From positions 1 to 31,193 of IMG/VR virus record IMGVR_UViG_3300037586_004548: a stretch of 31,193 nucleotides of DNA; one strand, 5' to 3'. The DNA is from a virus. Below the pieces are notes generated by a model. That model saw only the letters and a program-made list of their open reading frames with translations. It searched no databases and was not told the DNA's origin. Position numbers and translations under genes: made by a program. Every line of letters starts with the position of its first letter. Position 1 is the stretch's first letter. This document shows, piece by piece, positions 817-25,730 of this stretch.

Positions 817-3800
817 CTAATCTTTTTTCGTGCACAATTCCTCTTCCGCATTAAACGGGTTGGGACGTAATCTGCCGCGTCGCCACCAAGGAAGCATTGA
901 CCGGCCGGGGACGGGCCGAAAAGACTCTCGAAGACCAGCTAACCAAATTGTACCAGCACTTGGTCCATCATCATCGCCGGGAGTAAACTTACGACTTCGA
1001 TAAAAACTACGAAAAAGCTTTTTCAAGCGCGTTTTAAAGTTTCTTAATAATACCATGTCCCACTTATCAAATTCTAACACAAACCATTGATCTATATCCC
1101 GATCCTTTTTACTAGCCCACCCATCGGTGTCTGTATAATTAAAACTAATGTCCGTTACATATGGGCCGTCCTTTCCATAGCTTACTGATACGGCGCGCCC
1201 TGGTTTGGTGCCGATTCCTGCAAATTTGCCGGGGGGCGTGACCCCAAAAGTATCTCCCGTCTCGGCGCAAATTTGTCCAATAGACTGCAAAAGCCCATAG
1301 GAGTTATAAATGGCAATGAGTGAAACCATCTTTGGTAGTGGAAGAATATAACGTGTCAATAGTTTGAATCGCGCATCTTCCCTTAGTTTCAAAATTAAAC
1401 AATATAAAAGGTTACTATCTGCTTCAAAGGGCTGCGCATTAGCACACTCTACGTCCAAAGAATCCACTTCAACGGACGTAATCGGCACCTGCTGGCTGCC
1501 GATCACAGCACTCACTTGAAGCCCATAACGAACTCCCATGCTTCCTTTTATTCCCACCTCTTCTCCATCGTCGTTATAGACGTTTTCCATCGAACCGGGA
1601 TAATGTTGAGAAATATTATCTGTGGGCGGCAGATCTTTAATTACAGCTAGCGCGTCGGCTGGAGTTTTTTTGCCGCCATTAATACTGATATACTTTTCAA
1701 TAATCAAGAAATCGTCAGAACCTGGACTTGCTTCTCCCAAACTAGCCACGTCTCCGATGGGTACAGTGAGCTTGTTTGCTAGTGGCCGCAATAGCCGCGG
1801 CTCGTCATCTGCTATCCAAAATTCGCCGGCGGCATATAGCGCGCTGCCATCCATGGGATCGCGGAACACATGATAATATCCCTCATATTCTTCACCTGTT
1901 TCCGCATCAGAAAAAGACTTGCCAGAGGTATATAATTCGCTGTCCCCGGGCTCACCTAAGCCAACAACTTCCGGCTTGATGTCCCAATCTAAAATCAATT
2001 CACTTCCAGCGGCGAAATATTGCAATAAATAATAATCTAAATCAAATATAGTTGGTTTTATGTCTAATACTTTGAGATTATCTACGAATTTTTTGCCCAT
2101 ATAGTTGATTTGTTCGACAACTAACTCAGCCAATACAATTTTGGCGGACTCTTCGATTTTTTGTACGGCTTCAAGGTTTTTACTTTCACGATATCCCTTT
2201 AGAGTTTCGAGCATCCCTGCGTCTCGGGGGTTTGTCGACTTAGCATCCGAAAGCTCTTCGTGATATGGGTATTTATATTCAGATTGCATGTTATCTATTT
2301 CGATCAAAGCCCCTAAAACACTCTGCGGGGGCTGGATCTCATCTAAACTAATTCTATAATTATATATTTGAACGGCAGTTTCTAGAAATGCATACCAAAA
2401 TTCGTGATCGCTGAAAGGGCTGAAAAAGTCCCAAGGAGCTGTTGAAGGATCTTTGAACCCCTTTTCCATTAGCTCTACCACATAGGCAGCAAATAATTTA
2501 CTATATGTATATGGACAACTAGGGTTAAAGGTGCTAAATGTTGCGAGACCTTTGAGCATTTCCACACTAACGAAAGCTCGAATGGCAGAACTTATAAGAC
2601 CTTCTAATTCTGCTTTTGCTGAGCGCTCTAAAATTCTATTAAATGGGACTTCTAAAACGCAATCTGGATCGGATTTAAGGCGCTGATCGTGAGGGATTTG
2701 CGGATATCGCTCATTAATTTTGTCTTGGATATCGCCGAAATCAATCAAATCAGTTCGTTGTGGTTTACATGGGCTTATATCGGGAAACAGTACATCCACC
2801 ATTCCAAGCCACCCCTTATTCACAACCGGTCGAATATAAAGAGGAGGATTCATATATGTACCGCCAAATTTATTGGGATCTAAATAAATGACGCGAGCAT
2901 CCTTCCCATTTAGATACTGATCTCGGCTTTTACCCAAAATCATATCATCATTACTTAACGGCTCACCCTCGTCATTTACCGCTTCATGGTAAGCCACCCC
3001 ATTGTCCGTTACATATTCGATATCACTCAGTGTGAGGGGATCAAATTGCGCACCGTAATTAAAGGCTATATCATTATTGGCCACGAGATCCATGAATCGC
3101 TTAGTAAGTGTTTGGATGGCGTCGTCGCGAGCGTCGCCGGCAGCGCCGGATGTGACGGTATCAACGGGGATACCGATTGCCTGAGAGCCACTATTTATCA
3201 TTTCTTTCAGCAGGATTGTTTCGGGAGGGGCGCCTACGAGATTTGTAAAACATTGATAGAAATTGGGATAATCGGCAGCAATTTCTTCAAAATTTTCAAA
3301 GGCATCGTCAATAGCTACAAACTCTAATGCTCTATCTTTAATAATGCTGTTTTTTTGATCTTTCTCAAATTCTTTTTTCTCTTTTCTGTCCATATGTTGA
3401 GTTGGAGAAAAGTCTGTATCAACTCCCATGTTAAAAAATTCAGTAATTTTGACGCGAGCGTTATCGGCATAAGAATACGTTCCTACTGGGCTGCTACCCA
3501 TATTATGTGGCGCACTTTCTGGTTGTACCAAATCAGAAAGATAGATCTGAGCATCATACCCCCACGCATATGTTCCACCGAAATTCGCCGAGAGACCTTT
3601 GGCATTGTCTCTGAAGCTTAAATTAAGGTCAGGAGAGGCCTTCCGGGGCATCCTCTTAAAAAGGACGGATTCGGCGCCCATATTGACACCCAATCCTATA
3701 TTATACCCCATATCTGGGACTGCCAACAGATCAATATCCCCACCAAAAAGTCCTGTAAACCCTAGTGTCTCGAAGGAAACATACGTGTCCTTTCTACCAG

Positions 3801-6800
3801 CGAGGCTATTATTTCCTTTAAAATTTATTTCTACTTCGTCCTTCATATAATCTTGTAGCCATCCCCCGACGCGGACGGGGTACGCGCCCTGTTGCTTGTA
3901 CAGGGCGGACACTTGTTCAAAGGCGGCTTGATCTTTGTCAAACGCCGAGGCCCAAGTGTTACCTAAATCCACATAAAAATCCACATAACTACGATCATTA
4001 AAAACTTTCCTTTTGTGAGCGGTATATGGTTTTCCCATTGTGTCGGAGAGAATCATATTTATCATCCCCCAATCTTTATCGCTTGCAAACAACCCTCCAT
4101 TACCCAACATATCTTTCGAAAAGTCTACTTTTAATTGCTCTAAAGCTCCGCCTAATGCTGCCTTGGCGGATGCCGCGGCCTCTTCGGGCTCTAAGGGTAT
4201 TAATCCATCCTGACAATCTGGGTCAGGGTTAGTGGAGACGATGGGAGGCATATTGTCCATGATAAACGCGGTTGGACCTCCTTGAACTACTGCACCCAAA
4301 TCATCCAAATCGTCTAAAAATTGCCCTCTGATACTCTCATACATAGCATCGCATTGTTCTTTGGTTGCTCTTCCCTCAAGTAATTCACAACGTAAGTTTT
4401 TAAAATCTTCCAATTGTTTAGGGGTTGCACATAAAGTTGGGTTAGCAGGAGTTGTATCGTTTAGAGGAACACTATCCAAATAATCTTCGATTTCGGCCTT
4501 AAAGTCGACCGGAAGTAATTTTCCAACATTGACAAAAAATCTTTCGATGTCATCTGTTCCACCGAGACCATCGCGAAATTCAGGATACTCCCACTCAATA
4601 AGAGTATCAGTGATATTCAACAATGCTTGGGAAGGCACTCCTGTAAACCCTTCTAGTAGTTCGCGTTGAGTTACAGAAGAGGCAATATCTTCAGCAAAGT
4701 TAATCACAGCCTCTCGGTCGCCAAATGCGGCGCCGCCGGCGCCTAAAGTACCAAAAAGATCTTCAATGGTGGCTTCAACTTGTGCATCGTCTGCCTCCTC
4801 TCCACAAATCGCCTTCCTAATTGCAGCCGCAAAGGTTGTGCTAGAGTCCACTAACGCAGCCGCCATAGCGCCTGCAACTTCTAGAGCCTTACATATCGCG
4901 TCTCCTAACAACTCACATAGTTTTACCAAAAGCTTCATCAAAATTGAAACAATTAACTGTTGAATTGCACACTTTAAAGCTAGCCACAACCATCGCCAAA
5001 TATCTTTAAATTTGGGAAGCCATCCGAAAGGGTTTTCTATACGAGGAAGGGTGATATCCGTCATATTTCGACAAAAAGGTAGCTCAAGATCTTTTAGGAA
5101 ATCCATTATGCTGGGGTTAAAGATGGGTGGGCGCGGACAGTCGAGTAAAGCTATGATTCCTGCTATAAGCTGAGCGCCAGGGAATTTATTAAGTATATCT
5201 ACCAGTTCCAACAGCATCCCATCAAACATCTCCAGCAGAGCCTTAAAATAAGCCTGCATTACAATATTGGAGTCTAACTGGTTAGCTGATGCTCCCATGT
5301 CAAATTGTTGTGCGAGTGTACGACGCTGAGCGGTGGATGTATCTTGTGTTTGCTGAGGTGTCATCCCATCAACCGGCCCTTCTACTTGATTTTTGCGTTC
5401 CTTATCAATTAGCTCTTGGTTTTCCCAGGGCTTCTCTATGACATAGTTGCCGGCGGTCGAATCTCCCACAATCGCATTTTGTGAGTCGGATTTAAAAAGT
5501 TGTCCTTCGGAAAGCTTTTGCTTCACTAGAGCATCTAATGCAGCTTGCTTTTCAGGATCAAGGCCAATAAAAAGATCGCCGAAATTCTCTATACCCATTG
5601 CTTGGAGTGCGCTTTCACAAATACTCGCGAGGGCTTCTTCTAAAGTAAGGCCGCCCATCAAGCATCTGATGACCTCCATAAGCAGATCTAATAAACCACA
5701 CCATTTAAGACCATCAAACCCCTCCTTCCATAGCGCTTCCATTTGGGCGCCGGCACTTCCGCATATGCCACCCACGGCAGGCAAACCTAATCCCAACACA
5801 TTTGCGCATAAATAATTACCGATAGGATTATTGGTCTTCAGCTTCTTAAACGCTTGTTCCGTGGCCATGGACGACACCTTGCTGCGATCAAATGCGCCGG
5901 GGTTATCCAAATTAGGAAGAAGGCCCAACTCTTCATCAGATGCAATAACGTCCTCTAATGAAGATTGACACAAATTGTTGTGAAACATATAGGCAATTGC
6001 ATCTCCCAAACCAAACACATCATCCAAAATATCTTGTCCTAGTTGTTTGGCTTCGTTTTCTAGCGCCTCCATTACACAGCTTCCCACCGTTTCGCCGGGA
6101 GTTGAATCAGTAGGAAGCTTCACTGCTATTACAGGAGGGTAGGTAAAATTAGTTACAAATTCTATCCATGGCCACGCTTCGCGCGCGCCAAGTGCTGAGT
6201 GCATTTGTTGAAGCTGCGCAAAATAGCCGCGCGCAGTTCTATCGCGCCAACCGGGTTTTGATTTAAGCCGGCTTAATTTGCTTGTGTAAACCTTGGGCTT
6301 TTCCCCACAGTCTTCAGTCCACACTTTCATTCTTTTTAAATCATATTCTCCACTATATAAAATCTCTATTTTAACCACGCGATCTTGAAAAAAGACAATA
6401 GGGCCGCTACCAGGAATGTTTAGGCCTTTGCCATTTAAAAACTTATCTAACTCTACCAACATCGAACCCATCTTAGAGGCGCTTGGCCACATTCCAATAT
6501 CACCATAACTTTCTAAATTAAAAATGGCTCTTGATTCACCGGACTCCGCATCTTCAAAATATAAGTTTCCTCCTTCGACTCCTTGGTACACTTTTAGAAA
6601 GCGCGAATATAAACTCAAGCCCTTTCTAACCCGAATTAATTGAGATTTGATTGATGATGCTTGATATGTTACCAAAACATCCTCGCGTTCCTCTTCTACT
6701 TCTTCGTCTTCTTCCACGGCATCTTTAAGATCATGTAAATCCGAATAAGAAACCCCATATAGAAATTTAGCTCTGCTGTTAGGGCGTGGATCTAGATCAA

Positions 6801-7149
6801 AATCTTTAAGATGTAGTGCGGCGCTTAATGCACTAAAGGTCTCGTGCGAAGTATCTTTATCAAAAATGTCCAACAAGGCAGATACCGCTCGTGTTTTTTG
6901 AATTTCTGCCTTTCCCTCTAGATTATGTGAAATCTCGGTATATGCGGTAGGAACAGTGATCCAATATTCACACAATTTCTCGTTTAAGAATGGTTCGTCT
7001 ATTGTTCGATTACGCCAGTTTGGTACCAAAGCTTTAGGATTGGGAGAACATTCTAAACAAATAATGGGTGAGGATGGTGCAGGGCCGCACACATCTATTA
7101 AGCCATCATTGTTTCTATCTTGCCATGATAAAAAAGTAGAGTCTGCCAT
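817..7149 (-). CDS. Giant virion-type protein of unknown function, 2110 residues
   Basis: I do not recognise this protein as a named family. Its position between two other structural-type genes and gp25/gp6 suggests a virion component, probably of the tail or baseplate (inference). Near the N-terminus, residues 11-20 (DRNNDGLIDV) look like an EF-hand or dockerin-type calcium loop. Residues about 143-157 are a very acidic glutamate-rich stretch. Two strongly hydrophobic helical regions lie at about 641-670 and 717-765, unusual for a plain structural protein and compatible with membrane contact or packing inside a tube. The middle is rich in Asp, Gly and aromatic residues, and the last about 100 residues are Arg/Lys-rich before an acidic end. 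Cysteines are frequent. The ATG at 7149 has AAGGAG 8 bases upstream. A tape-measure, hub or host-contact role is possible; none is shown. Confidence 0.8.
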   Translation of the reverse strand: MADSTFLSWQDRNNDGLIDVCGPAPSSPIICLECSPNPKALVPNWRNRTIDEPFLNEKLCEYWITVPTAYTEISHNLEGKAEIQKTRAVSALLDIFDKDTSHETFSALSAALHLKDFDLDPRPNSRAKFLYGVSYSDLHDLKDAVEEDEEVEEEREDVLVTYQASSIKSQLIRVRKGLSLYSRFLKVYQGVEGGNLYFEDAESGESRAIFNLESYGDIGMWPSASKMGSMLVELDKFLNGKGLNIPGSGPIVFFQDRVVKIEILYSGEYDLKRMKVWTEDCGEKPKVYTSKLSRLKSKPGWRDRTARGYFAQLQQMHSALGAREAWPWIEFVTNFTYPPVIAVKLPTDSTPGETVGSCVMEALENEAKQLGQDILDDVFGLGDAIAYMFHNNLCQSSLEDVIASDEELGLLPNLDNPGAFDRSKVSSMATEQAFKKLKTNNPIGNYLCANVLGLGLPAVGGICGSAGAQMEALWKEGFDGLKWCGLLDLLMEVIRCLMGGLTLEEALASICESALQAMGIENFGDLFIGLDPEKQAALDALVKQKLSEGQLFKSDSQNAIVGDSTAGNYVIEKPWENQELIDKERKNQVEGPVDGMTPQQTQDTSTAQRRTLAQQFDMGASANQLDSNIVMQAYFKALLEMFDGMLLELVDILNKFPGAQLIAGIIALLDCPRPPIFNPSIMDFLKDLELPFCRNMTDITLPRIENPFGWLPKFKDIWRWLWLALKCAIQQLIVSILMKLLVKLCELLGDAICKALEVAGAMAAALVDSSTTFAAAIRKAICGEEADDAQVEATIEDLFGTLGAGGAAFGDREAVINFAEDIASSVTQRELLEGFTGVPSQALLNITDTLIEWEYPEFRDGLGGTDDIERFFVNVGKLLPVDFKAEIEDYLDSVPLNDTTPANPTLCATPKQLEDFKNLRCELLEGRATKEQCDAMYESIRGQFLDDLDDLGAVVQGGPTAFIMDNMPPIVSTNPDPDCQDGLIPLEPEEAAASAKAALGGALEQLKVDFSKDMLGNGGLFASDKDWGMINMILSDTMGKPYTAHKRKVFNDRSYVDFYVDLGNTWASAFDKDQAAFEQVSALYKQQGAYPVRVGGWLQDYMKDEVEINFKGNNSLAGRKDTYVSFETLGFTGLFGGDIDLLAVPDMGYNIGLGVNMGAESVLFKRMPRKASPDLNLSFRDNAKGLSANFGGTYAWGYDAQIYLSDLVQPESAPHNMGSSPVGTYSYADNARVKITEFFNMGVDTDFSPTQHMDRKEKKEFEKDQKNSIIKDRALEFVAIDDAFENFEEIAADYPNFYQCFTNLVGAPPETILLKEMINSGSQAIGIPVDTVTSGAAGDARDDAIQTLTKRFMDLVANNDIAFNYGAQFDPLTLSDIEYVTDNGVAYHEAVNDEGEPLSNDDMILGKSRDQYLNGKDARVIYLDPNKFGGTYMNPPLYIRPVVNKGWLGMVDVLFPDISPCKPQRTDLIDFGDIQDKINERYPQIPHDQRLKSDPDCVLEVPFNRILERSAKAELEGLISSAIRAFVSVEMLKGLATFSTFNPSCPYTYSKLFAAYVVELMEKGFKDPSTAPWDFFSPFSDHEFWYAFLETAVQIYNYRISLDEIQPPQSVLGALIEIDNMQSEYKYPYHEELSDAKSTNPRDAGMLETLKGYRESKNLEAVQKIEESAKIVLAELVVEQINYMGKKFVDNLKVLDIKPTIFDLDYYLLQYFAAGSELILDWDIKPEVVGLGEPGDSELYTSGKSFSDAETGEEYEGYYHVFRDPMDGSALYAAGEFWIADDEPRLLRPLANKLTVPIGDVASLGEASPGSDDFLIIEKYISINGGKKTPADALAVIKDLPPTDNISQHYPGSMENVYNDDGEEVGIKGSMGVRYGLQVSAVIGSQQVPITSVEVDSLDVECANAQPFEADSNLLYCLILKLREDARFKLLTRYILPLPKMVSLIAIYNSYGLLQSIGQICAETGDTFGVTPPGKFAGIGTKPGRAVSVSYGKDGPYVTDISFNYTDTDGWASKKDRDIDQWFVLEFDKWDMVLLRNFKTRLKKLFRSFYRSRKFTPGDDDGPSAGTIWLAGLRESFRPVPGRSMLPWWRRGRLRPNPFNAEEELCTKKD

Positions 7150-21464: not shown

Positions 21465-22351
21465 ACTAATGTCCACTCCGTGGGATAGAATCCCTGTCGA
21501 TGTTCAATTTCAGGCCGATCTGGATGGTAATGCTTTGGAGCAACTATGATAGAGTCTTTCTTGGTGTTCAAATATGCTGCCCACCAACCAAAGCTACTAA
21601 TGTGGGAAATGATGTTGTGATCGCACTGCATGATCGTTGCAAAGTCGATAAGACTATCGTTTTCATCTGCGAAAATGTACTCTTCTCCTACAAAATTGCG
21701 TTTGCACCACTCCATATCTGTTTCATTAGAATTGCCTGATTGGCGTGACCCCCCCGAAAAGATCAGGTATTTCACTTTCTGATCTTTAAAACACTCCTTA
21801 GCTGCAGTCAAATATTGTCCGTAAAAACTGTCCAATTCTAGATCTCCATTTTTTCCGTACATCTCGTTGAGTTCTTTACTGGGATTTGAGCCATCAGTAT
21901 TGTCACCACGACGAAGATGTAAAGATACAATCTCACACCCTTCGTGTTCGGACCTAATCGCATCTAAGTTTTCTTTGGCTTCATCTAAGATTTCTATCTT
22001 GGGAGTTAACTCTTTTCGAATCTGTTCTTCGTGGCCCTTAAAATATAAAGTACTTTGAAAAAAACCATGTAAATCGATGTTATCTGGAAGAATAAAAAAC
22101 TGTTCGTCAAAATTCATGTAGTCGGGCTCATAATACCGGCCCTCTAACTCTCGAATTTCACTTTCTTCCATAAACTCACATTCGATATTAAAGTTGTCCA
22201 AAAGACAGGTTTGGCCATGCCACATGCGTTTGGAAGGATCTGGAATTTTGGTGGTATAACCACGCGACAACCCCAAACCTCTTAGTGCTGCATATTGAAA
22301 CAACTGATTGCCCAGTCGTCCTAGTCTTCCTAATTCTATAAATGTTATCAT
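21461..22351 (-). CDS. GT11 alpha-1,2-fucosyltransferase-like enzyme
   Basis: A 296-residue GT11-family protein, which transfers fucose from GDP-fucose to a glycan. Signatures: GRLGNQLFQYAALRGL at 11-26, the donor-binding HLRRGD at 145-150, and the C-terminal SSFGWWAAYL at 252-261, all in the right order; the length fits the family. There is no signal peptide or membrane helix, so the transfer is cytoplasmic. The ATG at 22351 overlaps the aminotransferase stop (ATGA) and the stop overlaps the FkbM start. With the fucose-synthase-like gene two genes away it forms a probable fucosylation unit. The acceptor is unknown. Confidence 0.9.
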   Translation of the reverse strand: MITFIELGRLGRLGNQLFQYAALRGLGLSRGYTTKIPDPSKRMWHGQTCLLDNFNIECEFMEESEIRELEGRYYEPDYMNFDEQFFILPDNIDLHGFFQSTLYFKGHEEQIRKELTPKIEILDEAKENLDAIRSEHEGCEIVSLHLRRGDNTDGSNPSKELNEMYGKNGDLELDSFYGQYLTAAKECFKDQKVKYLIFSGGSRQSGNSNETDMEWCKRNFVGEEYIFADENDSLIDFATIMQCDHNIISHISSFGWWAAYLNTKKDSIIVAPKHYHPDRPEIEHRQGFYPTEWTLV

Positions 22352-22968
22352 TTCACCATCTCCACATTTTTAAACAATTCAAATTCTCTTAAATCACGAT
22401 AAGGTGGATTCTCAGGCAAGTCTTCTACGTGTTCGGGATAATTCTGCATCAACATCAAACCTCTTGCAGCCTGCTCGGGAGACATGTAGGCGTTCCATCC
22501 GTTAATCTCGATATTATCCTCGTGATACATTACTGTGCCGCGGCCCTCATAGCGACCTTTTCTGAACCATTTGGCTGCTTCTTCGTCATCTGTGAGGATC
22601 ATACCACCTTTTCCAATCTTCAGGTGCTTTTTAATATGAAACGACAAACACATGTAACTATCGGGAATATACATTCCACTTGTTAAGCGCTTTGCAGCAT
22701 CATATATCGGATAGGGCTTAAGCTGGTATACACCCCTCCAGGGCGCATCCTCAAACCTTACAGTACCTCCTGCATGGATAATGGACTGCGGGACAGACAA
22801 ATAGGTTCTAGAGGGTATTGTGACCTCTTTGACCTTCAGGTACTCACAACACAGTAATAGTGCGTCTGTGCAATTGTCCGTTGATACTGCGTACTTAGAG
22901 CCACAGTAATCGGCGACTGTTTCTTCAAACATCTTTACGATTTTATATGGATTGTGTCTTCTTCCCAT
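22348..22968 (-). CDS. Short DegT/DnrJ/EryC1-type PLP aminotransferase
   Basis: A 206-residue protein with the core of the DegT sugar aminotransferase family: YCGSKYAVSTDNCTDALLLC at 21-40, an IPSRTYLSVPQSI segment, PIYDAAKRLTSG at 87-98 with D90, and SFHIKKHLKIGKGGMILTDD at 109-128, where K114 is the probable PLP lysine. The family is normally about 370 residues, so the C-terminal small domain is missing or reduced. The stop is genuine in this frame and the next gene starts on it (ATGA). It could be a compact aminotransferase, or a truncated one unable to work alone. The ATG at 22968 has AAGGA upstream. Confidence 0.75.
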   Translation of the reverse strand: MGRRHNPYKIVKMFEETVADYCGSKYAVSTDNCTDALLLCCEYLKVKEVTIPSRTYLSVPQSIIHAGGTVRFEDAPWRGVYQLKPYPIYDAAKRLTSGMYIPDSYMCLSFHIKKHLKIGKGGMILTDDEEAAKWFRKGRYEGRGTVMYHEDNIEINGWNAYMSPEQAARGLMLMQNYPEHVEDLPENPPYRDLREFELFKNVEMVK

Positions 22969-23726
22969 TGTCCTTTTCCGATATATTGTTCCATTGCACG
23001 CGGTACTTGCGCTCCCCCTCTTTGATCAAGAAAGAGAGGCGCATATTGAATACGATATTTTCTATTAACACACGTTAATACCGCATCTCCTTTATGCATT
23101 CTCCACATATGCATATATTTGAATATATGCTCCAACAGATCTGTGTATTGTGTATCTGTATACATTCCTCCATGCACCTCCATGGCGATGATCCCAATGT
23201 GCGATAAATCCTTATTCATTAAAAAAGGATATTCCGCACCCTCAATATCAATTTTCATATAATCGACATAGTCTGTGCGAATTAATTTGAACACATCTTC
23301 CATTGCAACTGTCATACAAGTTTCATATTGAGAATCCTGCTCTGCTGAATATAGGCTACTGTCTCCGGGGTGGCCATTGGATGCGGCATATAAATTCATA
23401 ATTCGACCTGAATGTGTTTCTGCCGCTAATCGATAAGTGTGCAGGTTATTGTTTGTGCCTATATTTTTAGTTATCAAATCACATAGTCGAGTAGATGGCT
23501 CAAAGGCATGTACTTCTGTGAATTTGCTGAGTGCCTGTTTGCAAAACGTACCTATGTTGGCGCCAAAATCAACAGCAATTCGTGGTGTAAAATCTGGCGC
23601 AACTATTTGAAGAGTTTCTACTGAAGGGTATGAGTTTTCTGTTTCTTTTTCCATTTTGGAACGATAGTTGTCCATAGCTGTGGGGGTTTGAATTATTTCA
23701 TCAAAAGTTATAGTCTTATCCGGCAT
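22935..23726 (-). CDS. FkbM-family methyltransferase following the GNAT relic
   Basis: A 263-residue SAM methyltransferase: VDFGANIGTFC at 52-62, HAFEPS, and FkbM motif YMKIDIEGAEYPFL at about 156-169, followed by MEVHGGMYTD. The start is taken at ATG 23726 rather than an in-frame ATG at 23795. The upstream 23 codons lie out of frame over a conserved GNAT relic, and GGAG (23734-23737) sits 7 bases before 23726. The ATG overlaps the relic's stop codon, exactly as the intact GNAT and its FkbM gene do. It is a relative, not a close copy, of the FkbM at 23835. A sugar acceptor is inferred. Confidence 0.88.
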   Translation of the reverse strand: MPDKTITFDEIIQTPTAMDNYRSKMEKETENSYPSVETLQIVAPDFTPRIAVDFGANIGTFCKQALSKFTEVHAFEPSTRLCDLITKNIGTNNNLHTYRLAAETHSGRIMNLYAASNGHPGDSSLYSAEQDSQYETCMTVAMEDVFKLIRTDYVDYMKIDIEGAEYPFLMNKDLSHIGIIAMEVHGGMYTDTQYTDLLEHIFKYMHMWRMHKGDAVLTCVNRKYRIQYAPLFLDQRGGAQVPRAMEQYIGKGQWEEDTIHIKS

Positions 23727-23832
23727 CCGATTTCTCCAACAAATAATATCTCTTTTCAAATCCGCATTTTTCAAAAAGCTTAAGGCTGGCTTCATTATCT
23801 AATTTAACTTTTGCAACAGCATTTGGGTTGTG
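23716..23832 (-). pseudogene. C-terminal relic of a second GNAT acetyltransferase
   Basis: A minus-strand frame from just after the upstream FkbM stop (23835-23837) runs 38 codons to TAA at 23716-23718. It encodes HNPNAVAKVKLDNEASLKLF followed by EKCGFEKRYYLLEKSDAG. Aligned to residues 97-132 of the intact GNAT at 24547-24945, 27 of 36 residues agree, including the NEASxKLFExCGF core. No start and no acetyl-CoA-binding loop remain, so it cannot be a working enzyme. The match begins 2 bases after the FkbM stop, so the N-terminal two thirds of the gene were removed. Confidence 0.88.
23734..23737 (-). promoter_or_regulatory. Ribosome binding site inside the GNAT relic
   Basis: GGAG on the minus strand, 7 bases before ATG 23726, in the relic's LLEK codons. 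The intact GNAT has GGAG at 24562-24565, also 7 bases before its downstream FkbM start, in the corresponding LMEK codons. Confidence 0.75.
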
Positions 23833-23834
23833 TC

Positions 23835-24554
23835 TCACGTGGCAATTGCCTCTCTATTTAAACAAAAAAAGTTGTTTTTTCCGTGTAATAATTTAAAATC
23901 GTTCATAGCCTGTTTTTTTATATTTTCCAATTGTATTTTTTGTTTTTTAACTAAGGGTAAAATATGATAAAATTTATTCAAAAAAAGCAATAAATCTCGC
24001 TTACGATCTGGGCCGTAGAACCCATGAAGCTCCATTGCAATAATACTAATTCTATGATGTTCATGGAAATTTTCTAGTATTTCATACTCGCTGCCCTCGC
24101 AATCTAGCTTTAGGTAATTTATTCTTTTTATTTGCAGGCTGGCCATAAGATCCGACAAAGAGATAGTTGTGCATGTTTCGCCTAAATTACCAAATTTAAA
24201 TTCTTCATTATCAAAATCAGCGCAACTTATATCTTTTGAGTGATTATTTTGATGTATTTTTAGCGTGCGTGTTTCATTGCTTTTTCCAGTAACAGCCATA
24301 TTAAAAATTTCTACATTATTCATCTTTAATTTTTCTTTCACTCGTAACAAAATATCATAATTGGAAGAGCATGGCTCAAATGCATATATCTTGTCAAAAT
24401 GAGGGTGTGCATTAATACAAAAACCCCCCACATTAGCACCAATATCTATTGCAACAGGCAATTTCTGCTGCAACATAGGATAAGAGGAACGACACTCCTT
24501 GGCGCTTTCATTAATCCAGTCTAAAACATTTGATTCTGATACTAGATTATGCAT
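23835..24554 (-). CDS. FkbM-family methyltransferase, AT-rich
   Basis: A 239-residue SAM methyltransferase. Motif I is VAIDIGANVGGFC at 34-46, then YAFEPCSSN, and the FkbM motif LKLDCEGSEYEILENF at about 148-163, followed by MELHGFYGPDRKRD. It starts at ATG 24554, which overlaps the GNAT stop (ATGCATAA) with GGAG 7 bases upstream. By eye it is noticeably more AT-rich, with long A/T runs near its end, than the flanking genes, which fits separate acquisition. Downstream, only a GNAT relic separates it from the next FkbM gene. The acceptor sugar is unknown. Confidence 0.88.
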   Translation of the reverse strand: MHNLVSESNVLDWINESAKECRSSYPMLQQKLPVAIDIGANVGGFCINAHPHFDKIYAFEPCSSNYDILLRVKEKLKMNNVEIFNMAVTGKSNETRTLKIHQNNHSKDISCADFDNEEFKFGNLGETCTTISLSDLMASLQIKRINYLKLDCEGSEYEILENFHEHHRISIIAMELHGFYGPDRKRDLLLFLNKFYHILPLVKKQKIQLENIKKQAMNDFKLLHGKNNFFCLNREAIAT

Positions 24555-24945
24555 CTTCTTTCTCCATCAGATAATATTTCTTCTTAAATCCGCATCTTTC
24601 AAATAATTTAATACTTGCTTCGTTTTCGAGCTTTACTTTCGCATAAGCAAACGGATTTAGCTTCATCACTTCATTAATCATAAACGAGCCCGCCCCTTTG
24701 CCTTGCGCATCAGGATGAGTTGCAACGCGAATATCGTTATCTATTACCCCAACATACCCTACGGGCTTTTGATTGTCAAGACAAATCCAAAAATTATTAT
24801 TATATTGTAGCATGTAAGTGGCATGAGAAATCTCATCTATTTCTTCTTGTTGAATGAATCCCTGGCGCACATTGTCCATGTTGCGTAATTCTCTAATAAA
24901 TTCCCAGTATTGGGGATTATTTTGTACCAATCTTAATTCTGCCAT
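24547..24945 (-). CDS. GNAT-family N-acetyltransferase
   Basis: A 132-residue acetyltransferase. The acetyl-CoA loop is VATHPDAQGKGAGSFMINEV (about 74-93) with the Q/RxxGxG pattern, and the C-terminal NEASIKLFERCGFKKKYY (108-125) is the family's last strand and helix. It has the size and layout of RimI/PseH-like enzymes that acetylate amino sugars or small amines. The ATG at 24945 has AGGTAG upstream and overlaps the previous gene by 13 bp. Its end overlaps the FkbM start. With the short DegT aminotransferase in the cluster, N-acetylation of an amino sugar is a reasonable guess. A relic of a second copy lies downstream. Confidence 0.87.
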   Translation of the reverse strand: MAELRLVQNNPQYWEFIRELRNMDNVRQGFIQQEEIDEISHATYMLQYNNNFWICLDNQKPVGYVGVIDNDIRVATHPDAQGKGAGSFMINEVMKLNPFAYAKVKLENEASIKLFERCGFKKKYYLMEKEDA

Positions 24946-25730
24946 GTGTCTACCTGTGTTCCAAATGGGCTTTTGCTATTTAACCAATAATGTGTTAAAT
25001 ACCCGCGGGTGTATTTCCACCCTTCTAATCCCAGCAGCGGGTTCAAGCAACTACCAATATCTAAAAATGTGTTATTTGGGTTTTCTTTGAAATTTTCATA
25101 AATTACATAATTGCTCAAACTAGCTGCCGAGCAAAGAATAACATAATCACGGATATCGTTGGTGTCAATATACTCTTTAATTTCGTTCACAACATTATAA
25201 TCATTAATCATACAGTTTGAGCCTATTTCAAACGTCTTCTTTATTTCAAAAGGTAGCCTGGATACATCGGCCAGTTTATTAACGACATATATGATATGTC
25301 GTTTAGATAAGAGGGGAAGTAGTTCTTCTACAAAACGTCGGTAGTTCGCATTAATTAAAAGATTTGAAAAAGTCAAAGTTTCATGATCGCCCCCATGTAA
25401 ATCAATCATATAGGCAAAATTTTCATCTCCTACATGAGGGTCTGTGCCGGTACATATTCCCTTGAAATAATTGGATTGAACATGTTGGTATGCTTCAATA
25501 AGCTTCTCCCTATAAAATTGATCTCGTTCCGGGAGGAATTCCTTTTGTTCTTCTTCAGTATAAATGTTGCGTCCCTTAATATCACCTGTGATATAATGAT
25601 CTTTGGCTAAAATCACGGTTTTGTTCTGCATGATAAACAATTCACCATCTGAGAACCTGCTAAAGGCAAAGTTCTCTTTAGATTTAATTTTAGATAGAAG
25701 ACTGTCGAAAGCGGATGTAAAATCTTTCAT
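24933..25730 (-). CDS. GT-D-type glycosyltransferase (DUF1792-like)
   Basis: A 265-residue protein. The N-terminal FAFSRFSDGELFIMQNK (about 21-37) contains the DGE motif of GT-D fold glycosyltransferases (DUF1792), in which it binds metal and nucleotide sugar. A HIIYVVNKLADVSRLPF strand region and a C-terminal LDIGSCLNPLLGLEG pattern (compare the family's 'ldiGs.ld') are visible. Family members extend O-glycans on bacterial surface adhesins. The assignment is from motif resemblance only. The ATG at 25730 overlaps the preceding stop by one base (TAATG). Donor and acceptor are unknown. Confidence 0.7.
   Translation of the reverse strand: MKDFTSAFDSLLSKIKSKENFAFSRFSDGELFIMQNKTVILAKDHYITGDIKGRNIYTEEEQKEFLPERDQFYREKLIEAYQHVQSNYFKGICTGTDPHVGDENFAYMIDLHGGDHETLTFSNLLINANYRRFVEELLPLLSKRHIIYVVNKLADVSRLPFEIKKTFEIGSNCMINDYNVVNEIKEYIDTNDIRDYVILCSAASLSNYVIYENFKENPNNTFLDIGSCLNPLLGLEGWKYTRGYLTHYWLNSKSPFGTQVDTWQN

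Follow-up and report, generated by a model that had tools for sequence, protein, structure and literature searches.

Unequal joining at a GNAT-DegT cargo slot as the probable source of a two-part scar in a viral genome fragment

Exchange at gene borders in phages is the subject of an old dispute, in which targeted boundary sequences are set against random joining followed by selection. Two models have been put forward for such joints, namely exchange at short boundary sequences and illegitimate recombination (PMC3233612). In the temperate phages of one study, recombinase-driven exchange is reported to prevail over illegitimate recombination, with relaxed homologous recombination by Rad52-like recombinases (PMC3945230). 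The locus described here is similar to other cases of phage genome mosaicism in that its joints lie at gene ends and its cargo differs between otherwise similar phages.

The enzymes of the locus also have described counterparts. Its two cargo genes both pass the curated cut-off (37.7 bits) of the FkbM methyltransferase family (TIGR01444, PF05050). The best NCBIfam matches of its GNAT and DegT proteins are PseH (33.3 bits, cut-off 93.1) and PseC (47.5 bits, cut-off 423.5), an amino-sugar acetyltransferase and transaminase pair; both matches fall far under the cut-offs, and the DegT protein has about 200 residues rather than about 380.

The locus and its parts

The stretch of DNA analysed here (the window) is a viral fragment of 31,193 bases from IMG/VR with a baseplate wedge gene at one end. 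Its minus strand carries a long series of sugar-related genes, including glycosyltransferases, epimerases, several FkbM methyltransferases, a GT-D-like gene, a GNAT and a short DegT-type aminotransferase. Beside the baseplate wedge gene is an open frame of 2110 amino acids (817-7149) with no Pfam or PHROGs match, which perhaps encodes a large tail protein. Amid the sugar genes, 13802-14161 matches the cysteine dioxygenase family phrog_7851.

The order on the minus strand is GNAT, FkbM1, a GNAT relic and FkbM2, as noted in a preliminary description of the sequence, and then DegT. The features are as follows.

24933-25730, minus strand: GT-D-like protein, the conserved neighbour upstream of GNAT (PF22882 just under the cut-off; order kept in loci L004, L006 and L010)
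24547-24945, minus strand: intact GNAT N-acetyltransferase, upstream border of the slot (Pfam PF13508, E 8e-12)
24562-24565, minus strand: GGAG 7 bases before the FkbM1 start, within the codons of the GNAT tail (read in the sequence; GAG is preferred at this codon across the family)
23835-24554, minus strand: FkbM methyltransferase 1 (FkbM1), cargo (NCBIfam TIGR01444, 80.7 bits; clade with L010_B)
23716-23838, minus strand: two-part scar of 123 bases, a 40-codon open frame with a GTG start overlapping the FkbM1 stop
23825-23838, minus strand: scar part 1, the start of a DegT gene, GTGAGACACAACCC (identical at 14/14 positions to the start of DegT in L103; +12.1 bits against the GNAT profile)
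23716-23824, minus strand: scar part 2, the 3' end of a second GNAT allele, with a stop overlapping the FkbM2 start (27/36 amino acids identical; positions 15-24 at -16.7 bits)
23734-23737, minus strand: GGAG 7 bases before the FkbM2 start, from the GNAT tail (read in the sequence)
22935-23726, minus strand: FkbM methyltransferase 2 (FkbM2), cargo (TIGR01444, 65.0 bits; clade with L146)
22348-22968, minus strand: short DegT/DnrJ-type aminotransferase, downstream border of the slot (PF01041, E 1e-22; 80 relatives in viral contigs)

By their coordinates, the last codons of FkbM2 extend 34 bases into the DegT gene. A sister contig, UViG_3300006736_003202 (L003), has the same arrangement and is 99.97% identical over 10.4 kb, so an assembly chimera is unlikely.

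The short DegT protein belongs to Pfam PF01041 (DegT/DnrJ/EryC1/StrS), which it matches in two separate stretches with 81.1 bits against a cut-off of 19.8. In all these phages it has about 200 residues, roughly half the usual size, and keeps the motif SFHIKK..GKGG. A predicted fold, of moderate quality (mean pLDDT only 67), lies nearest to sugar aminotransferases such as WbpE (3nu8). Five bacterial MAG contigs of GTDB (L306-L310) also contain close relatives of this short DegT; they are possibly phage sequence binned with bacteria.

A cargo slot between GNAT and DegT

A collection of GNAT and DegT homologues was drawn from IMG/VR; once duplicates were removed, 64 distinct loci contained both. 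The two genes are adjacent in 47 of these, often overlapping, and separated by a gap of 68 bases in one. In three they are fused in one open frame (L127:3998-5044, L134:4004-5023, L135:3986-5056), which suggests that the encoded enzymes may have a joint function on one amino sugar. The remaining 13 loci carry cargo of 0.3-3.9 kb between GNAT and DegT. The cargo is mostly FkbM (the window, L010, L043, L072, L082, L087, L136, L141 and L146), with a formyltransferase in L005 and, by likeness, in L146, a sulfotransferase in L077, and further types elsewhere. In L033 the slot holds a SET-domain protein of about 97 amino acids (1012-1305).

Comparison of related phages reveals the same flanks with different contents. 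Homology ends at the GNAT stop between L104 and L141 (86% identity over 2.7 kb) and between L109 and L115, and restarts at the DegT start between L010 and L041 (cargo 97%, DegT 83%), L094 and L097, and L109 and L115. The interval between GNAT and DegT therefore serves as a slot for cargo, and its borders are exact. These break points mark where exchanges end and not which sequence paired, and the earlier suggestion that the GNAT tail is the homology through which cassettes are exchanged is unproven. The genes found upstream of DegT are widely varied.

Both borders carry translation signals within coding sequence. The GGAG is formed at a conserved glutamate codon of the GNAT tail. Of 38 alleles, 28 use GAG there, as against 161 of 635 glutamate codons elsewhere in the genes (Fisher p=2e-9, a value too small owing to the relatedness of the sequences, although the contrast with other columns stands). 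The frequency of GAG in this column is 0.68, compared with 0.18-0.46 at other conserved glutamate columns. Given this bias, the tail carries the ribosome-binding site of the next gene, and the idea that a tail was kept as the carrier of such a site gains statistical support across the family. At the other border, the DegT start (ATGnnnCATAAYCC) holds a stop codon used by the upstream gene, which is GNAT in L004 and cargo in L043, L141 and L146.

One other locus preserves a trace of how cargo arrives. The first 19 bases of a second FkbM gene in L010 (4983-5705; MLHNPY) exactly repeat the DegT start of the same locus (copy 4983-5001, DegT start 5707-5725), and the gene before this FkbM uses a stop codon within the copy. 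In a second lineage, therefore, the DegT start was the place at which cargo was added. The copy is an independent parallel, a second scar of cargo addition.

Make-up and origin of the scar

The preliminary description had recognised the relic as the end of a second GNAT gene (its C-terminal 36 codons), and this identification is correct. Relic codons 4-39 are identical to GNAT residues 97-132 at 27 of 36 positions (75%), local alignment of the nucleotides scores 51 while none of 500 shuffles exceeds 18, and tblastn within the genome gives E 1.6e-14. The matching signals described at the two FkbM genes were also recovered, since GGAG lies exactly 7 bases ahead of each start and the stop of the intact GNAT, like that of the relic, overlaps the FkbM start that follows. 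The place where the relic begins had to be revised, however: the frame opens 6 bases earlier than first described, with the GTG at 23838, and not all of it is GNAT.

The first 14 bases of the frame (23838-23825) are the start of a DegT gene. They agree with L103 at every position of its DegT start and with L114 at 13/14, whereas GNAT alleles reach at most 10/14. With position profiles of DegT against GNAT (the former built from starts fitting CAYAAYCC, the residues HNPY being invariant in alignment A2), the score of +12.1 bits is close to that of true DegT starts (12.7 +/- 3.6 bits). By comparison, 67 of 67 GNAT alleles score negative at these positions, with a maximum of -3.2 bits. Positions 15-24 are GNAT-like by the same measure, so GNAT begins at base 15 and the DegT-like part is 14 bases only. 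Within the minus strand of the window, 14/14 matches to the DegT start are found at the scar and at the true DegT start only.

Just as the GTG of the relic lies over the FkbM1 stop, the GTG of GTGAGACACAACCC in L103 shares bases with the stop of the gene upstream (GTGA); to judge from this likeness, L103 shows what would be the parental junction. The 14-base profile, the GNAT-like positions that follow and the GTGA overlap together show that in the scar a DegT start continues in frame into a GNAT tail, so that the joint holds pieces of two different genes. At the corresponding place the GNAT allele of L103 reads CACCCGAATGC; ACCC is common to both sides and is likely the joining point. Should a full-length GNAT allele read ...GTGAGACACAACCCAAATGCTGTT..., the first 14 bases would be plain GNAT.

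The two FkbM genes on either side of the scar are about 33% identical and are not each other's nearest kin. In a tree of 43 FkbM proteins, L010_B is the partner of FkbM1 and L146 that of FkbM2; grouping FkbM1 and FkbM2 in one clade is rejected (AU p=2.8e-6). The nearest kin of each sit in the same slot of other phages (L010, L043, L072 and L141 for FkbM1; L146 for FkbM2). The relic tail, compared with 18 further alleles and also by alignment, has a nucleotide identity of 0.71-0.77 to the GNAT of the window and of up to 0.77-0.79 to GNATs of other phages. A tree of the GNAT tails, which are too short to place the relic, does not reject sisterhood of the relic and its own GNAT (AU p=0.52). Taken together, the FkbM tree and the tail identities favour the view that two different slot alleles were joined, rather than one being duplicated.

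The scar is best read as the result of gene shuffling rather than of a tandem or recent duplication of a module. It was probably made by unequal recombination between the alleles GNAT-FkbM1-DegT and GNAT'-FkbM2-DegT. In these phages GNAT and the short DegT are partner neighbours between which sugar-decorating genes are repeatedly placed. Where two such alleles met, the DegT start after FkbM1 would have been joined in frame, via ACCC, to the tail of the GNAT preceding FkbM2. The hybrid was probably retained because its working GTG over the FkbM1 stop and its GGAG serving FkbM2 would let translation pass on. With its start region and the ribosome-binding site in the tail, the scar could keep up translation from FkbM1 to FkbM2.

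Although the preliminary description was right to invoke recombination, it had derived the arrangement from a duplicated GNAT-FkbM module, which would mean tandem copies and decay of the second GNAT to its tail. That origin is largely refuted and now very improbable. The gene order, the equal GGAG spacing and overlap at both FkbM starts and the tail tree are all compatible with it, but the FkbM genes are not sisters, the relic is no nearer to its own GNAT than to foreign ones, and a simple duplication of GNAT-FkbM does not predict a scar that opens with a DegT start. A switch of template, leading from the start of DegT back to the tail of GNAT, would, judging from the anatomy, give exactly this scar by duplicating FkbM within one genome, one copy being replaced later. 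It is quite unlikely, given the extra replacement event that it requires and the distance of the tail from its own GNAT (about 23-29%), which is as large as that between phages.

A variant of the preferred exchange is that a phage with GNAT-FkbM1-DegT received FkbM2 and the tail of its GNAT as a fragment, inserted at the DegT start. The cargo added in L010 with its copied 19-base head, and the varied upstream neighbours of DegT, are in keeping with such stepwise insertion. It leads to the same sequence as the single unequal exchange that we infer, requires two joints instead of one, and appears rather unlikely. One could also regard the 40-codon frame as a retained small protein with its own function, in view of the in-frame joint, the start over the FkbM1 stop and the GAGAGG ahead of it at 23849-23854. 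However, the frame occurs only in the window and its near-identical sister contig and is without the acetyl-CoA binding part of GNAT, which makes this reading most improbable.

A search of related loci for other scars of the GNAT tail, as the preliminary description had recommended, found none outside the window and the sister contig, and upstream of the cargo in L010, L043, L077 and L146 no candidate rose above shuffles; a KKYY...LLEK stretch in L010 was rejected as chance. Among all loci, DegT starts out of place comprise the relic, L010 and two further matches that lie away from slot joints and were taken as chance. Neither the parental GNAT'-FkbM2-DegT nor FkbM1 followed directly by DegT was found in IMG/VR, and a back-translated search with the tail peptide of the relic returned only the sister contig. 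Isolate phage genomes yielded no relatives of the GNAT of the window and only distant relatives of DegT.

It is tempting to generalise, if only tentatively, and to regard the two border elements, the tail of GNAT and the start of DegT, as a docking site made of coding sequence. With a ribosome-binding site and a ready stop, cargo would be expressed at once, and slots would grow by repeated joining that leaves hybrid scars. That this might be a main way in which large aquatic phages change their sugars is part of the same rather doubtful proposal.

Comparison with phage mosaicism

The slot provides a countable set for the study of gene-border exchange: of 64 natural alleles with the same borders, 13 contain cargo and two bear scars that can be read. 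This suggests that signals for translation in the flanking gene ends help to decide which joints survive. The slot also shows that methyl-, formyl- and sulfotransferases for sugars are shuffled among large phages. No description of the slot was found in the literature. Phage mosaicism as such is already known; the new elements are the slot itself, the coding nature of its borders and the scar composed of two parts. In contrast to mosaic joints described before, the borders here are coding, consisting of a GNAT tail with a ribosome-binding site and a DegT start with the stop of the upstream gene. The slot of the window further differs in having two different clades of the FkbM family side by side, and the scar between them holds pieces of both borders.
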